Assembly (NCBI RefSeq): GCF_000478925.1
Contig: NZ_AP013072.1
Span: forward strand, 2,024,501 to 2,088,500
DNA length: 64,000 nucleotides
Source: Streptococcus anginosus subsp. whileyi MAS624
GTDB taxonomy: Bacteria; Bacillota; Bacilli; Lactobacillales; Streptococcaceae
Reading direction: 5' to 3'
The notes under the pieces were generated by a model, which saw nothing but the letters and a program-made list of their open reading frames with translations, did not search any database and was not told the DNA's origin. Position numbers and translations under genes: made by a program. Below, piece after piece: positions 50,284 through 56,542 of this stretch (position 1 is its first letter; each line of letters opens with the position of its first letter).

Positions 50284-52563
50284 ATGCGCTATAATCAGTA
50301 TAGTTATACACCAGAAACAAACGAAAAAATCCTAGCTGAAATGGAAAGCATTGGATTTTCTTTCCGCCAAGAGTATTCTGATAAAGAAAATTTAGAGACT
50401 TTTGTACGTAAAACTTTTTTTAATTATAAAAATACAGACTATGCCTTAAAATCTTTGGTTGCCAATTCAAATACAGACTTACTCAGCTTTTTTACGTCCA
50501 AGCAAGAATTGACAGCAGAGATTTTTTATACGATTGCTTTTCAATTACTGGAATTTGTGCCCTTTGTTGACTTTGATGATGTAGAAACATTCCACAAGGA
50601 CATAAACTTTCCCATTACCTATGGAAATCTACTCGAAAATCTCTATCAATTGCTCAACACACGCACCAAAAACGGCAATCTCTTGATTGATAAACTAGTG
50701 AGCGACGGCTTGATCCCTGAAGACAATACCTACCACTATTTCAATGGTAAAAGTCTTGCGACCTTTACTAGCCATAATGCTATCCGCGAAGTGGTCTATG
50801 TGGAATCGCGCGTGGATACCGACGAAGATGGGCTGCCTGATTTGATTAAGGTCAGCATCATTCGTCCTCATTTTGATGGACAAATTCCTGCTGTCATGAC
50901 TGCTAGCCCTTATCACCAAGGAACCAACGACAAAGCCAGCGACAAAGCGCTCTATAACATGAATGTGGATTTGGCTAAAAAAGAAGCTGGAAAAATCACT
51001 GTTCGTGACCCAGAAATTCACTTGATTGAAACGAAAAAGGAAGCTGTATTAGCGGAGCAAGCAGAAGAAACACTCGGTCATATCGGTACTTACACGCTCA
51101 ATGATTATTTGCTTCCACGCGGTTTTGCTAATCTATATGTATCGGGTGTGGGAACCAAGGACTCTGAAGGCCTCATGACCAGCGGAGATTATTATCAAAT
51201 TGAAGCCTATAAAAACGTTATTGATTGGCTCAACGGTCGTTGCCGTGCGTTCACAGACCATACCAGACAACGAGAAATCAAAGCCACTTGGTCCAATGGA
51301 AAGGTTGCTACAACAGGAATTTCTTACCTCGGAACCTTGTCAAATGGGCTAGCTACAACTGGCGTAGATGGTCTTGAGGTCATTATTGCTGAAGCTGGAA
51401 TTTCTTCTTGGCACAATTACTATCGTGAAAATGGCTTAGTGACAAGCCCCGGCGGCTATCCTGGTGAAGATTTTGACTCTTTGACTGAATTAACTTACTC
51501 ACGCAACCTCTTAGCTGGTGAAAATCTTCGTCATAATACTGCATATCAAGCTCATCTGGCGGAATTAAAAGAAAATCTAGATCGTAAAACAGGCGACTAT
51601 AATCAATTTTGGCATGATCGCAATTACCTTATCCATGCCCACAAAGTCAAAGCTGAGGTTGTCTTTACGCACGGATCGCAAGACTGGAATGTCAAACCGC
51701 TGAATGTTTACAATATGTTCCACGCACTACCAAAACATCTCAAAAAACATCTATTTTTCCATAACGGTGCTCACGTTTACATGAACAATTGGCAATCCAT
51801 TGATTTTCGTGAAGCTATGAATGCACTTCTTAGCAAGAAACTACTGAATTACGATTCACGCTTTGAATTACCAACTGTGATTTGGCAAGACAATCGTCAG
51901 GCTCAAAGTTGGCTGTCTTTAGAAACATTTGGCGATCAGAAATACGACACTCATTTCAACCTAGGTAAAGGCACACAAATTATCCCAAACCAATATGCTC
52001 AAGAAGACTACAACCGTTTTAGCAAAACTTATCAGACTTTCAAAAATGAACTTTTTGACGGAAAACTCAATCAAGTGACAGTGAATGTGACACTGGAAAA
52101 AGATTTATTCTTAAATGGTCCTGTTAAACTTAACCTTCGCCTTAAATCCAGTACTGATAAAGGCTTGATTTCTGCACAATTGCTGGATATTGGACACGCC
52201 AAACGGCTCCTTCCACTACCTAGTGTACTTGCACCAAAAGCTATGGATAACGGTCGCTTTTATATGTTGGAACATTTGATGGAATTACCCTTCAAAGAAA
52301 CACCACATCGCGTCATCACCAAAGGTTTCCTAAATCTTCAAAATCGCACTGATTTGCTAACAGTCGAAGAAGTCACACCAGATCAATGGATGGAAATTTC
52401 TTTTGAACTTCAACCCACTATCTATAAAATAGCAGCAGGTGATACACTCCGTCTTGTCCTTTATACTACTGACTTTGAACACACTGTCCGTGATAATACC
52501 GACTATCACTTAACAATTGATTTAGAAAAATCTAGCCTAGATATACCAGATGTGTTAAAATAA
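50284..52563 (+). CDS. pepX: X-prolyl dipeptidyl aminopeptidase
   Basis: 759 residues, family S15. It releases X-Pro dipeptides from the N-terminus of peptides, in the cytosol. The nucleophile is S347 in TTGISYLG. The catalytic Asp lies in [12 protein letters not shown] and the His in [11 protein letters not shown] long N-terminal helical domain and the C-terminal jelly-roll are both present, so the length is complete. AAAGGAG precedes the ATG. Confidence 0.96.
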
Positions 52564-52940: not shown

Positions 52941-52984
52941 AAAAGAACAGCCGCTAAATACTCACTTAATGGCTGTTCTTTTTC
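52941..52984. terminator. Bidirectional terminator
   Basis: AAAGAACAGCC and GGCTGTTCTTT form an 11-bp stem between the pepX-ybaB transcript (plus) and the regulator/peptide operon (minus), with A- and T-runs on both sides. Confidence 0.8.
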
Positions 52985-52992
52985 TTAATATC

Positions 52993-53085
52993 TTACCATT
53001 TTATTGGTGGTAAATCTCCTATCAGCGTAAATAGAATAACTCCTACAATAATTCCTAAAAACAATTTTTTCCATTCAGTCTTCAT
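52993..53085 (-). CDS. 30-residue secreted-type peptide, candidate pheromone of the PlcR-like regulator
   Basis: The ATG at 53085 lies inside the last codons of the regulator gene (11-bp overlap). AGAGG sits 6 bases upstream. The peptide starts MKTEWKK, has a hydrophobic core (LFLGIIVGVILFTLI) and ends GDLPPIKW. That is the form of a small export signal followed by a short mature tail. PapR, the pheromone of Bacillus PlcR, is likewise encoded just downstream of its regulator and ends in a processed heptapeptide of the DLPFEF type. The gene is too short for usual calling. The role is inferred; the frame and ribosome site are seen. Confidence 0.6.
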   Translation of the reverse strand: MKTEWKKLFLGIIVGVILFTLIGDLPPIKW

Positions 53086-53935
53086 TTTTGACCTCTTTCT
53101 GTAGTTTAGACTGCAATGATAGAGCAATATTTTTCAACTGCCTATTATTTTCCAACTCAAATAGAACAATTGATCTTTTGCAAGTTGTCAACGCTTCTTC
53201 CATTAAGCCCTGAGCTTTAAAAATATTGGCTTGCATCAATAACAATTCCCCCAAGAGATAAAGCGATTTATGCTCTAGGACACTTTCGATAGCAATTGTA
53301 TTATAATAAAGCGCCTTTTCGATATCGTTCAAGCAAAAATAGCACCTAGATATGCTAATCAGAAAGCTCCATTCATATTCTAATTGATTCAACAATTTAT
53401 AATTTGGGAGAATTTCTAAAAAGTAAGACATGGACTGTTCATAGTCTTCTTCTCCCATATAGATATTGCCCAAACTATTTAACACTCTTAAGTGCAATTC
53501 AGGATATTCCTTAGAAGATTCTGCTAAAACTTCTAATTCCTTTTTAGATTTTTCAAAATTTGAAAAATGATGATAGTCTAAAATAGCTTTATACCAATCC
53601 ACATATAGTAGTTCTTTTGGGGTGAAGTTTTCAACTGGAAAGTTTGAAACAATATAAAGCAGTGTCTGATGATCTCGCTTATAAAATAACTCTTGAATTT
53701 CTTTTGAATAAACATCATGATTAGTTGAATGAATCGCAAAAATTTCTTCCACTTGTTTCATATCAATTTCTAATTTTTTGATTAAACCAAAGAAAATATC
53801 GGTAGAGGGAACCATTTCACCTCTTTCAATACGACTGATAATTCCCTGTGCACAAATCCCTTGTGCCAGCTCTTTTTGAGACATTCCGCGTCTCTTCCGA
53901 TAACGTTTGATTAAATCTGCGATTTCCTTTTTCAT
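53075..53935 (-). CDS. PlcR-like transcriptional regulator (XRE HTH plus TPR-type helices)
   Basis: 286 residues. The N-terminal HTH is residues 5-62 (IKRYRKRRGMSQKELAQGICAQGIISRIERGE). The rest is all helical with TPR-like repeats (LHLRVLNSLGNIYMGEEDYEQSMSYF, then SFLISISRCYFCLNDIEKALYY, then YLLGELLLMQANIFKAQGLMEEALT). Length and layout match the RRNPP peptide-sensing regulators, closest by eye to PlcR (ICHQSEVSRIESG in PlcR against ICAQGIISRIERG here). It is the fifth gene of the operon, 30 bp after the ATPase, with the candidate pheromone gene overlapping its end. Confidence 0.85.
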   Translation of the reverse strand: MKKEIADLIKRYRKRRGMSQKELAQGICAQGIISRIERGEMVPSTDIFFGLIKKLEIDMKQVEEIFAIHSTNHDVYSKEIQELFYKRDHQTLLYIVSNFPVENFTPKELLYVDWYKAILDYHHFSNFEKSKKELEVLAESSKEYPELHLRVLNSLGNIYMGEEDYEQSMSYFLEILPNYKLLNQLEYEWSFLISISRCYFCLNDIEKALYYNTIAIESVLEHKSLYLLGELLLMQANIFKAQGLMEEALTTCKRSIVLFELENNRQLKNIALSLQSKLQKEVKNED

Positions 53936-53965
53936 TCTACCAATCCTTTTATTCTGCTCTCTATA

Positions 53966-54586
53966 TTATACCACCTTCCCCTCTTGAATGCGATAAACTA
54001 CATCACAAAGATTATCAATATCAGAAGCTAAATGGGAAGATAATACGACCAACCCTTTCTGTTTTTGCTTCAAAATCAAGTCTTGTGTGACAGCTACACT
54101 TTTTTCATCAAGAGCATTCATTGGCTCATCTAAAATTAAGATTTCAGGAGAATCTATAAATGCTTGTATTAACGCCATTTTTTTCTTAGTACCAAGTGAT
54201 AAATTTTTATAAGCAGTATGTGTGAATTTTTCTAAACCATACAAAGAAATCCAATAAGATAAATCAATTTCTTTCTTATGGCGGCATAATTGTTTAACTA
54301 ATTCTAAGTTTTCCAACAATGATAAATGGGAAATAAACTCTGGATTTTCGATCAAAACCCCAGCTCTTTCAATATAGTTTTTTCGCTTACGAATTTGGAT
54401 ATTATCCTGATAAACAGTACCTTTATCCAATTTTATATAACCAGCTAAAGCTTTTAAAATCAAGGTTTTACCTGAACCATTGATTCCCACTAAGCCATAA
54501 ATATGATGATTTTCAAATGTCAAATGAATATCATTTAGAACAACATTTCCTTTATAGGTTTTAAAACCATGTTCAATTTTTAACAT
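53966..54586 (-). CDS. ABC-2 type transporter ATPase
   Basis: 206 residues. Walker A GINGSGKTLILKAL near residue 36, signature LSLGTKKKMALIQ near 128, Walker B ILILDEPMNALD near 150, and a short H-loop region LSSHLASD. The C-terminus is short (RIQEGKVV), as in simple two-component exporters. Its start overlaps the end of the preceding membrane gene by 14 bp. It would power the two membrane proteins encoded upstream. Confidence 0.88.
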   Translation of the reverse strand: MLKIEHGFKTYKGNVVLNDIHLTFENHHIYGLVGINGSGKTLILKALAGYIKLDKGTVYQDNIQIRKRKNYIERAGVLIENPEFISHLSLLENLELVKQLCRHKKEIDLSYWISLYGLEKFTHTAYKNLSLGTKKKMALIQAFIDSPEILILDEPMNALDEKSVAVTQDLILKQKQKGLVVLSSHLASDIDNLCDVVYRIQEGKVV

Positions 54587-55205
54587 GCTGTCTCTCCCTC
54601 CAATACGATTCTAATAAAAATAAAGCTACTATGATAAACACAAACCACCCTATATAGGTCATCAATAGATATCGCACTAAAATTTCCCCTGCAAGAGCCA
54701 TAATGACAATAACAGATGAGGAGCTATAGAGTTCAATCATTGAAAAACATAGCCAATCAACCACAAACCAAGACACTAAGAGATACAAAACTTCTGCTAG
54801 ATTCCAAGAAAGACTTGGTAAGGTTAATGCTACTCCTACAATGCACACAGCTTGTACGATAAACTCTACTAGATAGTGCGGTAAAACGACTTTTCCTATT
54901 TTATATTTATAGTCCATGCTATTTTTTGAATGAAAACGAACTAATTCCCTACCTCCATTTGATAAATCTGACAGTAAAAGAAAGGTCATGAAAAAGCTAG
55001 TAAAAGATAAGCCTAAAATCATAATTACTCTTAAAAAATTGAAATTTTCTTGTGGGAAGACAGGAAAAGGATATAGGATTTGGTAAGTGAGTAGCTGCTT
55101 CAAATCTGTTAGATGGCGATCATTAAACTTGGTCATTAACAGATAAATCATGACACAAGTAAGAACACTTTTACTAATGAAAACAAATCTTTTAATCCAC
55201 CTCAT
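54573..55205 (-). CDS. ABC transporter membrane subunit (second)
   Basis: 210 residues, about six hydrophobic segments (FISKSVLTCVMIYLLM, VIMILGLSFTSFFMTFLLL, AVCIVGVALTLPSL and so on). No named family can be fixed by eye. It is flanked by 14-bp overlaps with both the first membrane gene and the ATPase, so it is part of the same complex. Confidence 0.75.
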   Translation of the reverse strand: MRWIKRFVFISKSVLTCVMIYLLMTKFNDRHLTDLKQLLTYQILYPFPVFPQENFNFLRVIMILGLSFTSFFMTFLLLSDLSNGGRELVRFHSKNSMDYKYKIGKVVLPHYLVEFIVQAVCIVGVALTLPSLSWNLAEVLYLLVSWFVVDWLCFSMIELYSSSSVIVIMALAGEILVRYLLMTYIGWFVFIIVALFLLESYWRERQHVKN

Positions 55206-55983
55206 AAGATTTTCTCACTTTTAAGACTCCATACATAAGCAAAAACGGAAGGTAGGTCAGCGCTACTTGCCACAGTGAAACACCTCCGTAAGCCGTAATC
55301 ATAAGATTCGACATTGGTACCAGATAAACTGGTAAAAAGCTGTATAAAATTGGTGCTAAGCCCCACAATAGGAATAAATATAAAAGGGCTGCTTTTGGGA
55401 AACTAACATAATAATCAACAAGATAGCAGGCAAAGAGTGTTTGAACAAAGAGAGCGCTTGCTTTTATCAAAAAATAATAAAGCAAATAAGCCCATGTACC
55501 GCGCGCAAAAATCCTTAATATAGAATGAGGATTAAAATACATTTCTAATTGAGGATATTCCATCCTGTTTATCACTAGAGCAATACCAATGATTACTAGC
55601 AATAGTATGGTAAATAACCCAACAATCAATCCTCCCATTTGACATTTTAAAGAAAAAAGCCTACGATCATAATCCCTCTGCTTCCCAATTACATACTTCA
55701 GATGACGGGTTTTAACAAAATGATAAATAAAAACAGCAAAGACGATAAGAATAGGAAATATGAAAGATTGGAAAAAATTATACTCAAATAAACTACCCTG
55801 GATAGATAACATTGTTCGTAAATATTGTTGCTTGATAGCCGCTCCATCTAGTTTAGCCAAGTCTGGAGCTTTGGGATCAAAAAACAAAATATGTTCGATG
55901 GCAGCATGATAAATCATCCCTAAAAATAAAATGGGAATCAGGAACATTGAGCGTCGAAAAGGGAATAACTTATATTTGACCAT
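55192..55983 (-). CDS. ABC transporter membrane subunit (first)
   Basis: 263 residues with about six membrane segments, starting MVKYKLFPFRRSMFLIPILFLGMIYH. A long outside loop (residues 30-70) lies after the first helix, the ABC-2 permease style also seen in bacitracin/lantibiotic immunity exporters. AGGAGAC precedes the ATG. Upstream lies the gene of the secreted protein (60-bp gap). Confidence 0.75.
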   Translation of the reverse strand: MVKYKLFPFRRSMFLIPILFLGMIYHAAIEHILFFDPKAPDLAKLDGAAIKQQYLRTMLSIQGSLFEYNFFQSFIFPILIVFAVFIYHFVKTRHLKYVIGKQRDYDRRLFSLKCQMGGLIVGLFTILLLVIIGIALVINRMEYPQLEMYFNPHSILRIFARGTWAYLLYYFLIKASALFVQTLFACYLVDYYVSFPKAALLYLFLLWGLAPILYSFLPVYLVPMSNLMITAYGGVSLWQVALTYLPFLLMYGVLKVRKSYEVD

Positions 55984-56043
55984 TTTAGTCTCCTTTTAAA
56001 AAACGAGGAAGAAACTATTTCGTAAAAATACTATACTATCCGA

Positions 56044-56433
56044 TTAGTGTGAGTCTGGAGACCAGCTTCCATCAATAAAGAAAGAGCCATCCCAAAAATT
56101 TTCACGAGCTAAATTCAAGTTGTAAATATAACCAGCTTGCGCATTATTTGTATAAACTCCACGTTGCCCTGTCCAAGTAAGGTCAACATCACTCCGACGT
56201 GCTCCGTTTGAATTTGCCAAATAGTGTTTTACACGAATTTGTGGACTTTTTGAATCTAAATTCACAACATAGTAACTACTATTCATCTTCTGCAAGTAAG
56301 AGGTTCCTGCAAAGGCAGGAGTAATCCGAAAGCGGGAAAGTTGACCTATTTGTCTGCCTCTTGCACCAACCAAACCTGCTGTCAAAAGAAGAGTAGCTAG
56401 TACAGCTATAAATCCTAATTTACTTTTTGTCAT
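56044..56433 (-). CDS. Small secreted protein, first gene of the PlcR-like/ABC operon
   Basis: 129 residues from the ATG at 56433 (GAGG 6 bases upstream). The ATG at 56442 lies on the ribosome site. The signal peptide is MTKSKLGFIAVLATLLLTAGLVGARG. The mature part has FRITPAFAGTSYLQKMNSS, a RSDVDLTWTGQRGVYT region and the acidic, aromatic end FFIDGSWSPDSH. It has no cysteine and no double-glycine leader, so it would leave by Sec. I do not recognise it with confidence; by its form and company it may belong to the DUF2712-like secreted proteins found beside DUF2705 transporters. A bacteriocin-like or transporter-linked role is a guess. Confidence 0.75.
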   Translation of the reverse strand: MTKSKLGFIAVLATLLLTAGLVGARGRQIGQLSRFRITPAFAGTSYLQKMNSSYYVVNLDSKSPQIRVKHYLANSNGARRSDVDLTWTGQRGVYTNNAQAGYIYNLNLARENFWDGSFFIDGSWSPDSH

Positions 56434-56476
56434 ATTATACCTCATTTCTAAAATAGTTGCTTCCTCTCTACAAAAT

Positions 56477-56505
56477 AATATAGCACATAGAGAAAACGCT
56501 GTCAA
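56477..56505 (-). promoter_or_regulatory. Promoter of the secreted protein/ABC/PlcR-like operon
   Basis: TTGACA, 17 bp, TATATT with a TGC extension on the minus strand, 44 bp before the ATG. It is one of the strongest promoters by consensus in the window. Confidence 0.75.
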
Positions 56506-56526
56506 TCTTTTTTAGATATTTTTATC

Positions 56527-56542
56527 ACAAAAAGATTTTTGT
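56527..56542. promoter_or_regulatory. Palindrome upstream of the operon promoter
   Basis: ACAAAAA-GA-TTTTTGT, a perfect 7-bp inverted repeat centred about 30 bp upstream of the -35. The place is right for an activator such as the PlcR-like regulator. It could also be incidental, as the DNA is AT-rich. Confidence 0.35.

Follow-up and report, generated by a model that had tools for sequence, protein, structure and literature searches.

In the 64,000-nucleotide stretch of Streptococcus anginosus subsp. whileyi MAS624 analyzed here (contig NZ_AP013072.1; the whole stretch is referred to as the window), six minus-strand genes at positions 52993 to 56433 encode a secreted protein, two membrane proteins, an ATP-binding cassette (ABC) ATPase, a PlcR-type regulator and a 30-residue peptide. 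This operon is probably a PlcR/PapR-type quorum-sensing unit with an acquired effector cassette, a reading that includes autoinduction, an effector directed at competitors and immunity provided by the transporter. From sequence comparison, we have high confidence that the receptor and the peptide belong together; confidence in the function of the operon is moderate, as its promoter is strong, no operator is established, docking failed and the effector has no family assignment. More broadly, we see an even chance that the pair represents a separate streptococcal PlcR-type class, with PP(I/V)-core pheromones and a position at the end of transport operons, which in the lineage of the window took over a cassette under SigX or Rgg-like control in relatives, so that one effector module would be linked to three peptide-signaling circuits.

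The regulator and its adjacent propeptide

53075..53935, minus strand: PlcR-type RRNPP regulator with helix-turn-helix (HTH) and tetratricopeptide repeat (TPR) regions; PF01381 and PF18768
52993..53085, minus strand: 30-residue propeptide MKTEWKKLFLGIIVGVILFTLIGDLPPIKW, putative pheromone precursor; PP(I/V) tail in 13 of the 15 clade loci described below

The regulator carries an N-terminal HTH and a C-terminal TPR/RNPP domain within one chain, and its matches to PF01381 and PF18768 (RNPP_C, E = 3.6e-12) are both above the Pfam gathering scores. A PlcR profile matches it at E = 2e-31, PlcR is its top structural match (approximately 22% identity in the structural alignment), and by both sequence and fold it is nearer to PlcR than to Rgg/ComR. 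In the PlcR system, papR lies downstream of plcR. In the window, the peptide frame shares 11 nt with the end of the regulator gene and has AGAGGT 5 nt ahead of its ATG. The initial annotation had proposed that a PlcR-type receptor gene is followed directly by the gene for its own peptide, a reading that the family, the fold and the recurrence of the tail in 13 of 15 loci now support.

To search for the regulator-peptide pair across streptococci, as had also been suggested, a nine-row regulator profile was used as a query against 284 Streptococcus genomes, with at most eight first-look candidates scored per genome. Fifteen regulators in 13 genomes, referred to here as the clade, matched at E = 1e-118 or better and the following matches were at approximately 2e-66, a gap that is partly by construction because nine of the 15 clade loci built the profile. 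The DNA behind all 15 regulators was read, and a short frame with a PP(I/V) tail was found at or near the regulator stop in 13, including the window, each being a short propeptide with a hydrophobic leader and a conserved C-terminal tail. The tail in the window is GDLPPIKW; those elsewhere are MIPPIIF (G141), LIPPIIF (G088), VVPPIIF (G201), DFPPIIHLQ (G158), EKPPIIEFIK (G192) and LIPPVVGK (second copy in G181), with DKIPPVILS shared by the first copy in G181, by G136, G279 and G016, and by G014, where it occurs twice. The PP(I/V) tail thus spans six regulator lineages; it is retained behind leaders that have diverged, with silent differences at some of its codons.

The frequency of such frames was assessed by applying one rule to the ends of 447 different open reading frames (ORFs) of at least 100 residues (from the window, L042 to L067 and L166 to L177), with frames longer than 50 residues uncounted. 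A small frame with a PP(I/V) tail was found at 15 of these ends, of which 12 belonged to clade regulators, two to regulators from another family of the order and one to chance. The peptide is therefore not a chance frame, given the PP(I/V) tail in 13 of 15 related loci against one unrelated match in 447. This last match, an FPPII frame at the histidine kinase of L049, was judged to be chance, as it has a TTG start and an unclear ribosome site and is not present behind the homologue in L047. The other family of the order contains four PlcR-type regulators with LPPV or IPPV tails (G404, G336, G447 and G390), which hints that a PP(V/I) type of signal goes deeper; the length limit kept the LPPV frames of G336 (51 residues) and G390 (53 residues) out of the 15. 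Tails reading LPPVE or IPPVE were located at L099/L170 (G404), L100 (G336), L101/L172 (G447) and L103 (G390).

In a tree of 51 regulator rows (midpoint rooted for drawing, with the TprA-like row L094 dropped as truncated), the window regulator falls within the 19-row side of a branch with support of 99/96. This side comprises the window, 11 other PP(I/V) rows, two peptide-less rows, four deeper relatives and P0022, a database protein of 74% identity without known context. The TprA-like regulators form a separate group with 13 members, set off by a branch of 1.82; they were recognized by the DPGPAN-type peptides present in some of them, TprA itself being outside the tree, and L096 is labeled peptide-less although a DPGPAN peptide is present. 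The inner order of the tree is uncertain, as several joins involve long branches. The two peptide-less clade receptors, G061 (L059/L068) and G211 (L069/L167), have close kin that carry the peptide frame and nest among peptide-bearing regulators, which is why we read them as losses of the frame; these receptors are possible eavesdroppers. Among plasmids, 26 records matched, all at less than 60% identity, and no PP(I/V) frame was found in the four inspected downstream of the regulator. Among viral contigs, 115 stretches match two peptide patterns, and none of these stretches encodes a relative.

The secreted-protein/ABC cassette and its control in relatives

56044..56433, minus strand: secreted 129-residue protein, putative bacteriocin-like effector of a conserved family ending GSWSPD; one N-terminal hydrophobic segment
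55192..55983, minus strand: membrane protein A, permease-like; five hydrophobic segments; relatives have homologues downstream of the secreted-protein gene
54573..55205, minus strand: membrane protein B, permease-like; six hydrophobic segments; homologues in relatives
53966..54586, minus strand: ABC ATPase; PF00005 (E = 6e-25), best NCBIfam model TIGR03740

The window is the only one of the 15 clade loci that joins the regulator-peptide pair to this cassette; no cassette genes lie beside the regulator in the other 14, examined over stretches of 9 to 15 kb. In 13 of these 14, an ORF of 398 residues (five loci) or 533 to 562 residues (eight loci) directly precedes the regulator, and Pfam searches of five such ORFs identified major facilitator superfamily proteins (L058 and L166) and ABC exporters (L062, L063 and L067); in G158 the regulator adjoins divergent genes.

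The secreted protein represents an uncharacterized family and may be a bacteriocin. Nineteen members were found, including that of the window, and the 17 aligned rows are 63 to 99% identical. A structure predicted from 18 sequences was a poor, low-confidence all-beta model, with which a fold search was uninformative. Membership of the lactococcin 972 family is not supported at the sequence level, with no such Pfam match among 18 members, and DUF2712 was rejected, being matched by one of the 18 at E = 0.15 and by one distant relative at E = 0.35. The best model for the ATPase, TIGR03740 (lantibiotic protection ABC ATPase), is matched at E = 2.5e-39 and 135 bits, below its cut-off of 309.75.

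The secreted protein was identified in 17 of the 284 Streptococcus genomes, that is, in 16 besides the window, and in a more distant form in five further genomes of a 395-genome sample of the order. Both membrane proteins and the ATPase accompany it; the set is interrupted in some genomes, and G216 has a split secreted-protein gene. In L050 (G071), 391-residue ORFs (possibly transposases) break into the cassette, where membrane protein A is truncated and the ATPase is split. No regulator match follows the cassette in S. didelphis, S. penaeicida, S. uberis, S. pseudoporcinus, S. bovimastitidis or S. halichoeri, although in two of these six a weak match (E = 1e-3 and 4e-3) lies approximately 5 kb upstream of it. 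The cassette of S. didelphis is preceded by era and a NUDIX gene, and that of S. halichoeri is followed by mutM. A LytTR regulator and a histidine kinase flank the cassette in L049 (5759-7841) and L047 (650-2486), the GHKL domain having been tested in L047 only.

Upstream of the secreted-protein gene, within 130 nt, a CGAAT(A/T) element resembling the CIN (SigX) box was found in 10 of the 13 relatives examined first (L042 to L047, L049, L050, L052 and L055); seven of the 10 are CGAATA and eight lie 46 to 52 nt from the start. Shuffled upstream regions gave a mean of 1.0 and a maximum of 4 boxes per 13 in 300 sets, a comparison uncorrected for relatedness of the genomes. As a control, CGAATA with TT or TG as first bases precedes comGA in eight of 11 genomes, including that of the window (L148 to L152 and L154 to L156). 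L153 carries a CGAAC variant instead, and L157 and L158, for which a wrong start was chosen, show neither. Variants beginning with TT or TG are listed among the CIN boxes of S. dysgalactiae (PMC11288034). These boxes suggest that the cassette encodes a late-competence effector in the relatives. In the window's own genome, exact TACGAATA did not exceed its reversed control (72 versus 141 occurrences), so it is the location ahead of the gene that carries the CIN argument. In front of the window's own cassette no CGAAT element, and so no sign of SigX (CIN) control, was found.

A different arrangement is present in G131, one of the 13 relatives examined first, and in G216, G253 and G272, which were found later. 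In these loci a tryptophan-rich small ORF ending PWWPPFP, PSWW or TWFWG separates the secreted-protein gene from a divergent regulator (L057, L208, L209 and L210, corresponding to G131, G253, G272 and G216, respectively). Rgg_C was identified in the regulators of G253 and G216 and only HTH_3 in that of G131, with G272 outside the scan; CGAAT occurs in G216, G253 and G272 only approximately 355 to 374 nt upstream, inside the regulator gene. The combination of an Rgg-like regulator and a tryptophan-rich ORF looks like a ComS/XIP-type circuit. Across the 16 relatives there are consequently 10 with a CIN-like box, four with an Rgg-like neighbor, one with a one-base variant of the box (G051) and one with neither (G155). 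Because relatives show SigX boxes or Rgg-like regulators, a bacteriocin-like cassette seems to have been captured by different signaling circuits, and the separate halves in related species suggest a modular cell-to-cell signaling circuit. The operon described in the initial annotation is accordingly present, but its secreted-protein/ABC part is a separate cassette.

Operon signals, proposed mechanism and alternatives

56504..56537, minus strand: inverted repeat AATCTTTTT-16-AAAAAGATT, candidate operator; downstream arm shares 2 nt with the -35 hexamer
56477..56505, minus strand: sigma-70-type promoter TTGACA-17-TATATT with TG; 11 of 12 consensus positions, assigned by consensus match only
52941..52982, minus strand: terminator-like hairpin closing the operon; -20.7 kcal/mol, z = -5.6

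The six genes are bracketed by the near-consensus promoter and the strong hairpin and are separated, in 5'-to-3' order, by +60, -14, -14, +30 and -11 nt, which makes a single transcript plausible. The single minus-strand operon of the initial annotation is thus upheld, and all of its components (the 129-residue secreted protein, two membrane proteins, ABC ATPase, HTH/TPR regulator and overlapping 30-residue peptide) were recovered where it had placed them. The promoter is the top-scoring of 30 pattern matches in the region (16.5 in shuffles). The hairpin lies directly 3' of the peptide gene and is followed by UUUUAUAG; none of 200 shuffles folds as well, and it was absent from the output of a simple terminator scan. 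The upstream neighbor of the operon is a membrane GDPD gene and the convergent neighbors encode YbaB and PepX. The latter, an X-prolyl dipeptidyl peptidase (50284-52563, plus strand), lies one gene from the proline-rich peptide, which may be coincidence.

We infer export, processing, binding, autoinduction, antibacterial action and immunity as follows. The propeptide would be exported and cut, probably via PptAB/Eep, releasing a short C-terminal fragment that ends in LPPIKW and may be DLPPIKW, comparable to PapR7 (ADLPFEF), the proline of which matters for PlcR activation (PMC6568020). PptAB is described as exporting Rgg peptides in streptococci (PMC5167397), and the window's own genome encodes one EcsB (PptB-like) protein, one M50 (Eep-like) protein and four of the OppA type. 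The D-L-P in GDLPPIKW, as in PapR7, is suggestive, not proof. An oligopeptide permease would import the mature peptide, which would bind the TPR groove of the regulator, and the peptide-bound regulator would activate the promoter before the secreted protein, so that effector, ABC transporter, regulator and peptide would rise together. The secreted protein would most likely target competing bacteria, with the transporter protecting the producer.

Several observations weigh against this scheme. The near-consensus promoter is strong for an activator target and could fire without one; no PlcR box (consensus TATGNANNNNTNCATA) was found in the 149-nt intergenic region before the operon; and the inverted repeat is weak, with arms equally long in 10 of 500 dinucleotide shuffles. 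A model of the regulator fused to the peptide, following the structure prediction that had been proposed, gave a good regulator but a tail with a predicted local distance difference test score of approximately 49 to 62 and no confident placement. Loci lacking the frame or its ribosome site had been named at the outset as evidence against the pairing; while 13 of the 15 keep the frame, it is absent from G061 and G211, G016 and G279 lack a homologous ATG and have only a shorter TTG start open, G136 and G014 have the ATG with an unclear ribosome site, and no such frame was found within 1.5 kb in four deeper relatives (G579, G434, G267 and G225). The secreted protein has no significant match in Pfam, NCBIfam or the PDB and belongs to no recognized antimicrobial family, and it does not match a lactococcin 972 protein from an S. 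salivarius plasmid (BLASTP E = 1.8).

The promoter and repeat bear most directly on a model with the same receptor and peptide in which the regulator is a repressor on the inverted repeat at -35. Rgg3 is such a repressor, released by peptide. A promoter this close to consensus should need no activator, and the repeat touches the -35 hexamer; repression is nevertheless rather unlikely, given the weakness of the repeat, the finding of no shared operator or repeat upstream of the related clade operons, and the role of PlcR, the closest relative, as an activator (PMC6568020). The frameless receptors within the clade and near it would also fit a regulator that senses another ligand, or the peptide of another cell, beside a small frame with no signaling role. 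We regard this as improbable, since the tail is kept in 13 of 15 loci despite diverging leaders and silent changes and since receptors without a signal are expected of eavesdroppers too. A purely accidental peptide frame in an otherwise ordinary regulated transporter operon is very improbable: short frames are common, but the recurrence of the tail and the count among the 447 ORFs contradict this, and the set is bracketed by promoter and hairpin.

A greater, though still minor, possibility is that the secreted protein is not antibacterial and that the operon functions in adhesion, envelope stress or host interaction. The missing family match and an ATPase that does not reach the cut-off of the lantibiotic-protection model speak for this, whereas the antibacterial reading draws on the small size of the secreted protein, on its association with a LanF-like ATPase and a pair of small permeases, and on the SigX box or Rgg-like neighbor in 14 of 16 relatives, resembling the control of pneumococcal streptococcin B.

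Relation to known signaling systems

RRNPP systems, streptococcal PlcR-type regulators and RRNPP-controlled bacteriocins are already known. The window pair resembles PlcR/PapR of the Bacillus cereus group in regulator family and fold and in the leucine-proline core of the peptide, and differs from it in the double proline, the target operon, the absence of an upstream PlcR box and the low regulator identity. Streptococcal PlcR-family regulators with nearby peptide genes are described as PapR/TprA-like systems (PMC12445099), and TprA/PhrA as controlling lantibiotic expression (PMC13361665); the window shares this arrangement, but its tail contains PP(I/V) in place of their DPGPAN or DPGPAH and its regulator falls in a separate tree group. 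The view in the initial annotation that the set is not recognizable as a described streptococcal system therefore does not extend to the PlcR type, already represented by TprA/PhrA, but holds for the PP(I/V) class, which, like the change in control of the cassette, was not found in the literature consulted, including PMC12445099, PMC10075063, PMC9765709 and PMC13361665, a listing in supplementary tables being possible. A literature search on tail motifs returned no occurrence of LPPIKW, other matches being word-fragment noise.

If the proposed reading is correct, the PP(I/V) core would define a new pheromone class for streptococcal RRNPP signaling and a natural set for the study of signal specificity, including receptors that no longer have their own signal. 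It would also present a clean case of regulatory rewiring, with related cassettes under SigX, Rgg-like and PlcR-type control within one genus, in which it can be asked what each control mode gains a competing bacterium, and would draw attention to an uncharacterized secreted family, perhaps of bacteriocins.

On the effector side, the loci with a divergent Rgg-like regulator and tryptophan-rich ORF have a homologous secreted protein, permeases and ATPase and differ from the window in those two regulatory parts. LanFEG-type immunity transporters differ in that the window ATPase falls short of the family cut-off, though TIGR03740 is its best model. The pneumococcal scb locus is described as encoding the Sec-secreted bacteriocin streptococcin B, predicted immunity and transporter genes and a ComR-type RRNPP regulator tied to competence (PMC11796350). 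It is similar in logic, with a secreted effector and transporter genes adjoining an RRNPP regulator; streptococcin B is lactococcin 972-like, a family to which the secreted protein of the window shows no sequence match. On the S. salivarius plasmid pSsal-YU10 (L216, 2489-4932), a PlcR-like regulator precedes, by approximately 1.3 kb, a bacteriocin annotated as belonging to the lactococcin 972 family, and the interval contains an IS30 transposase gene.

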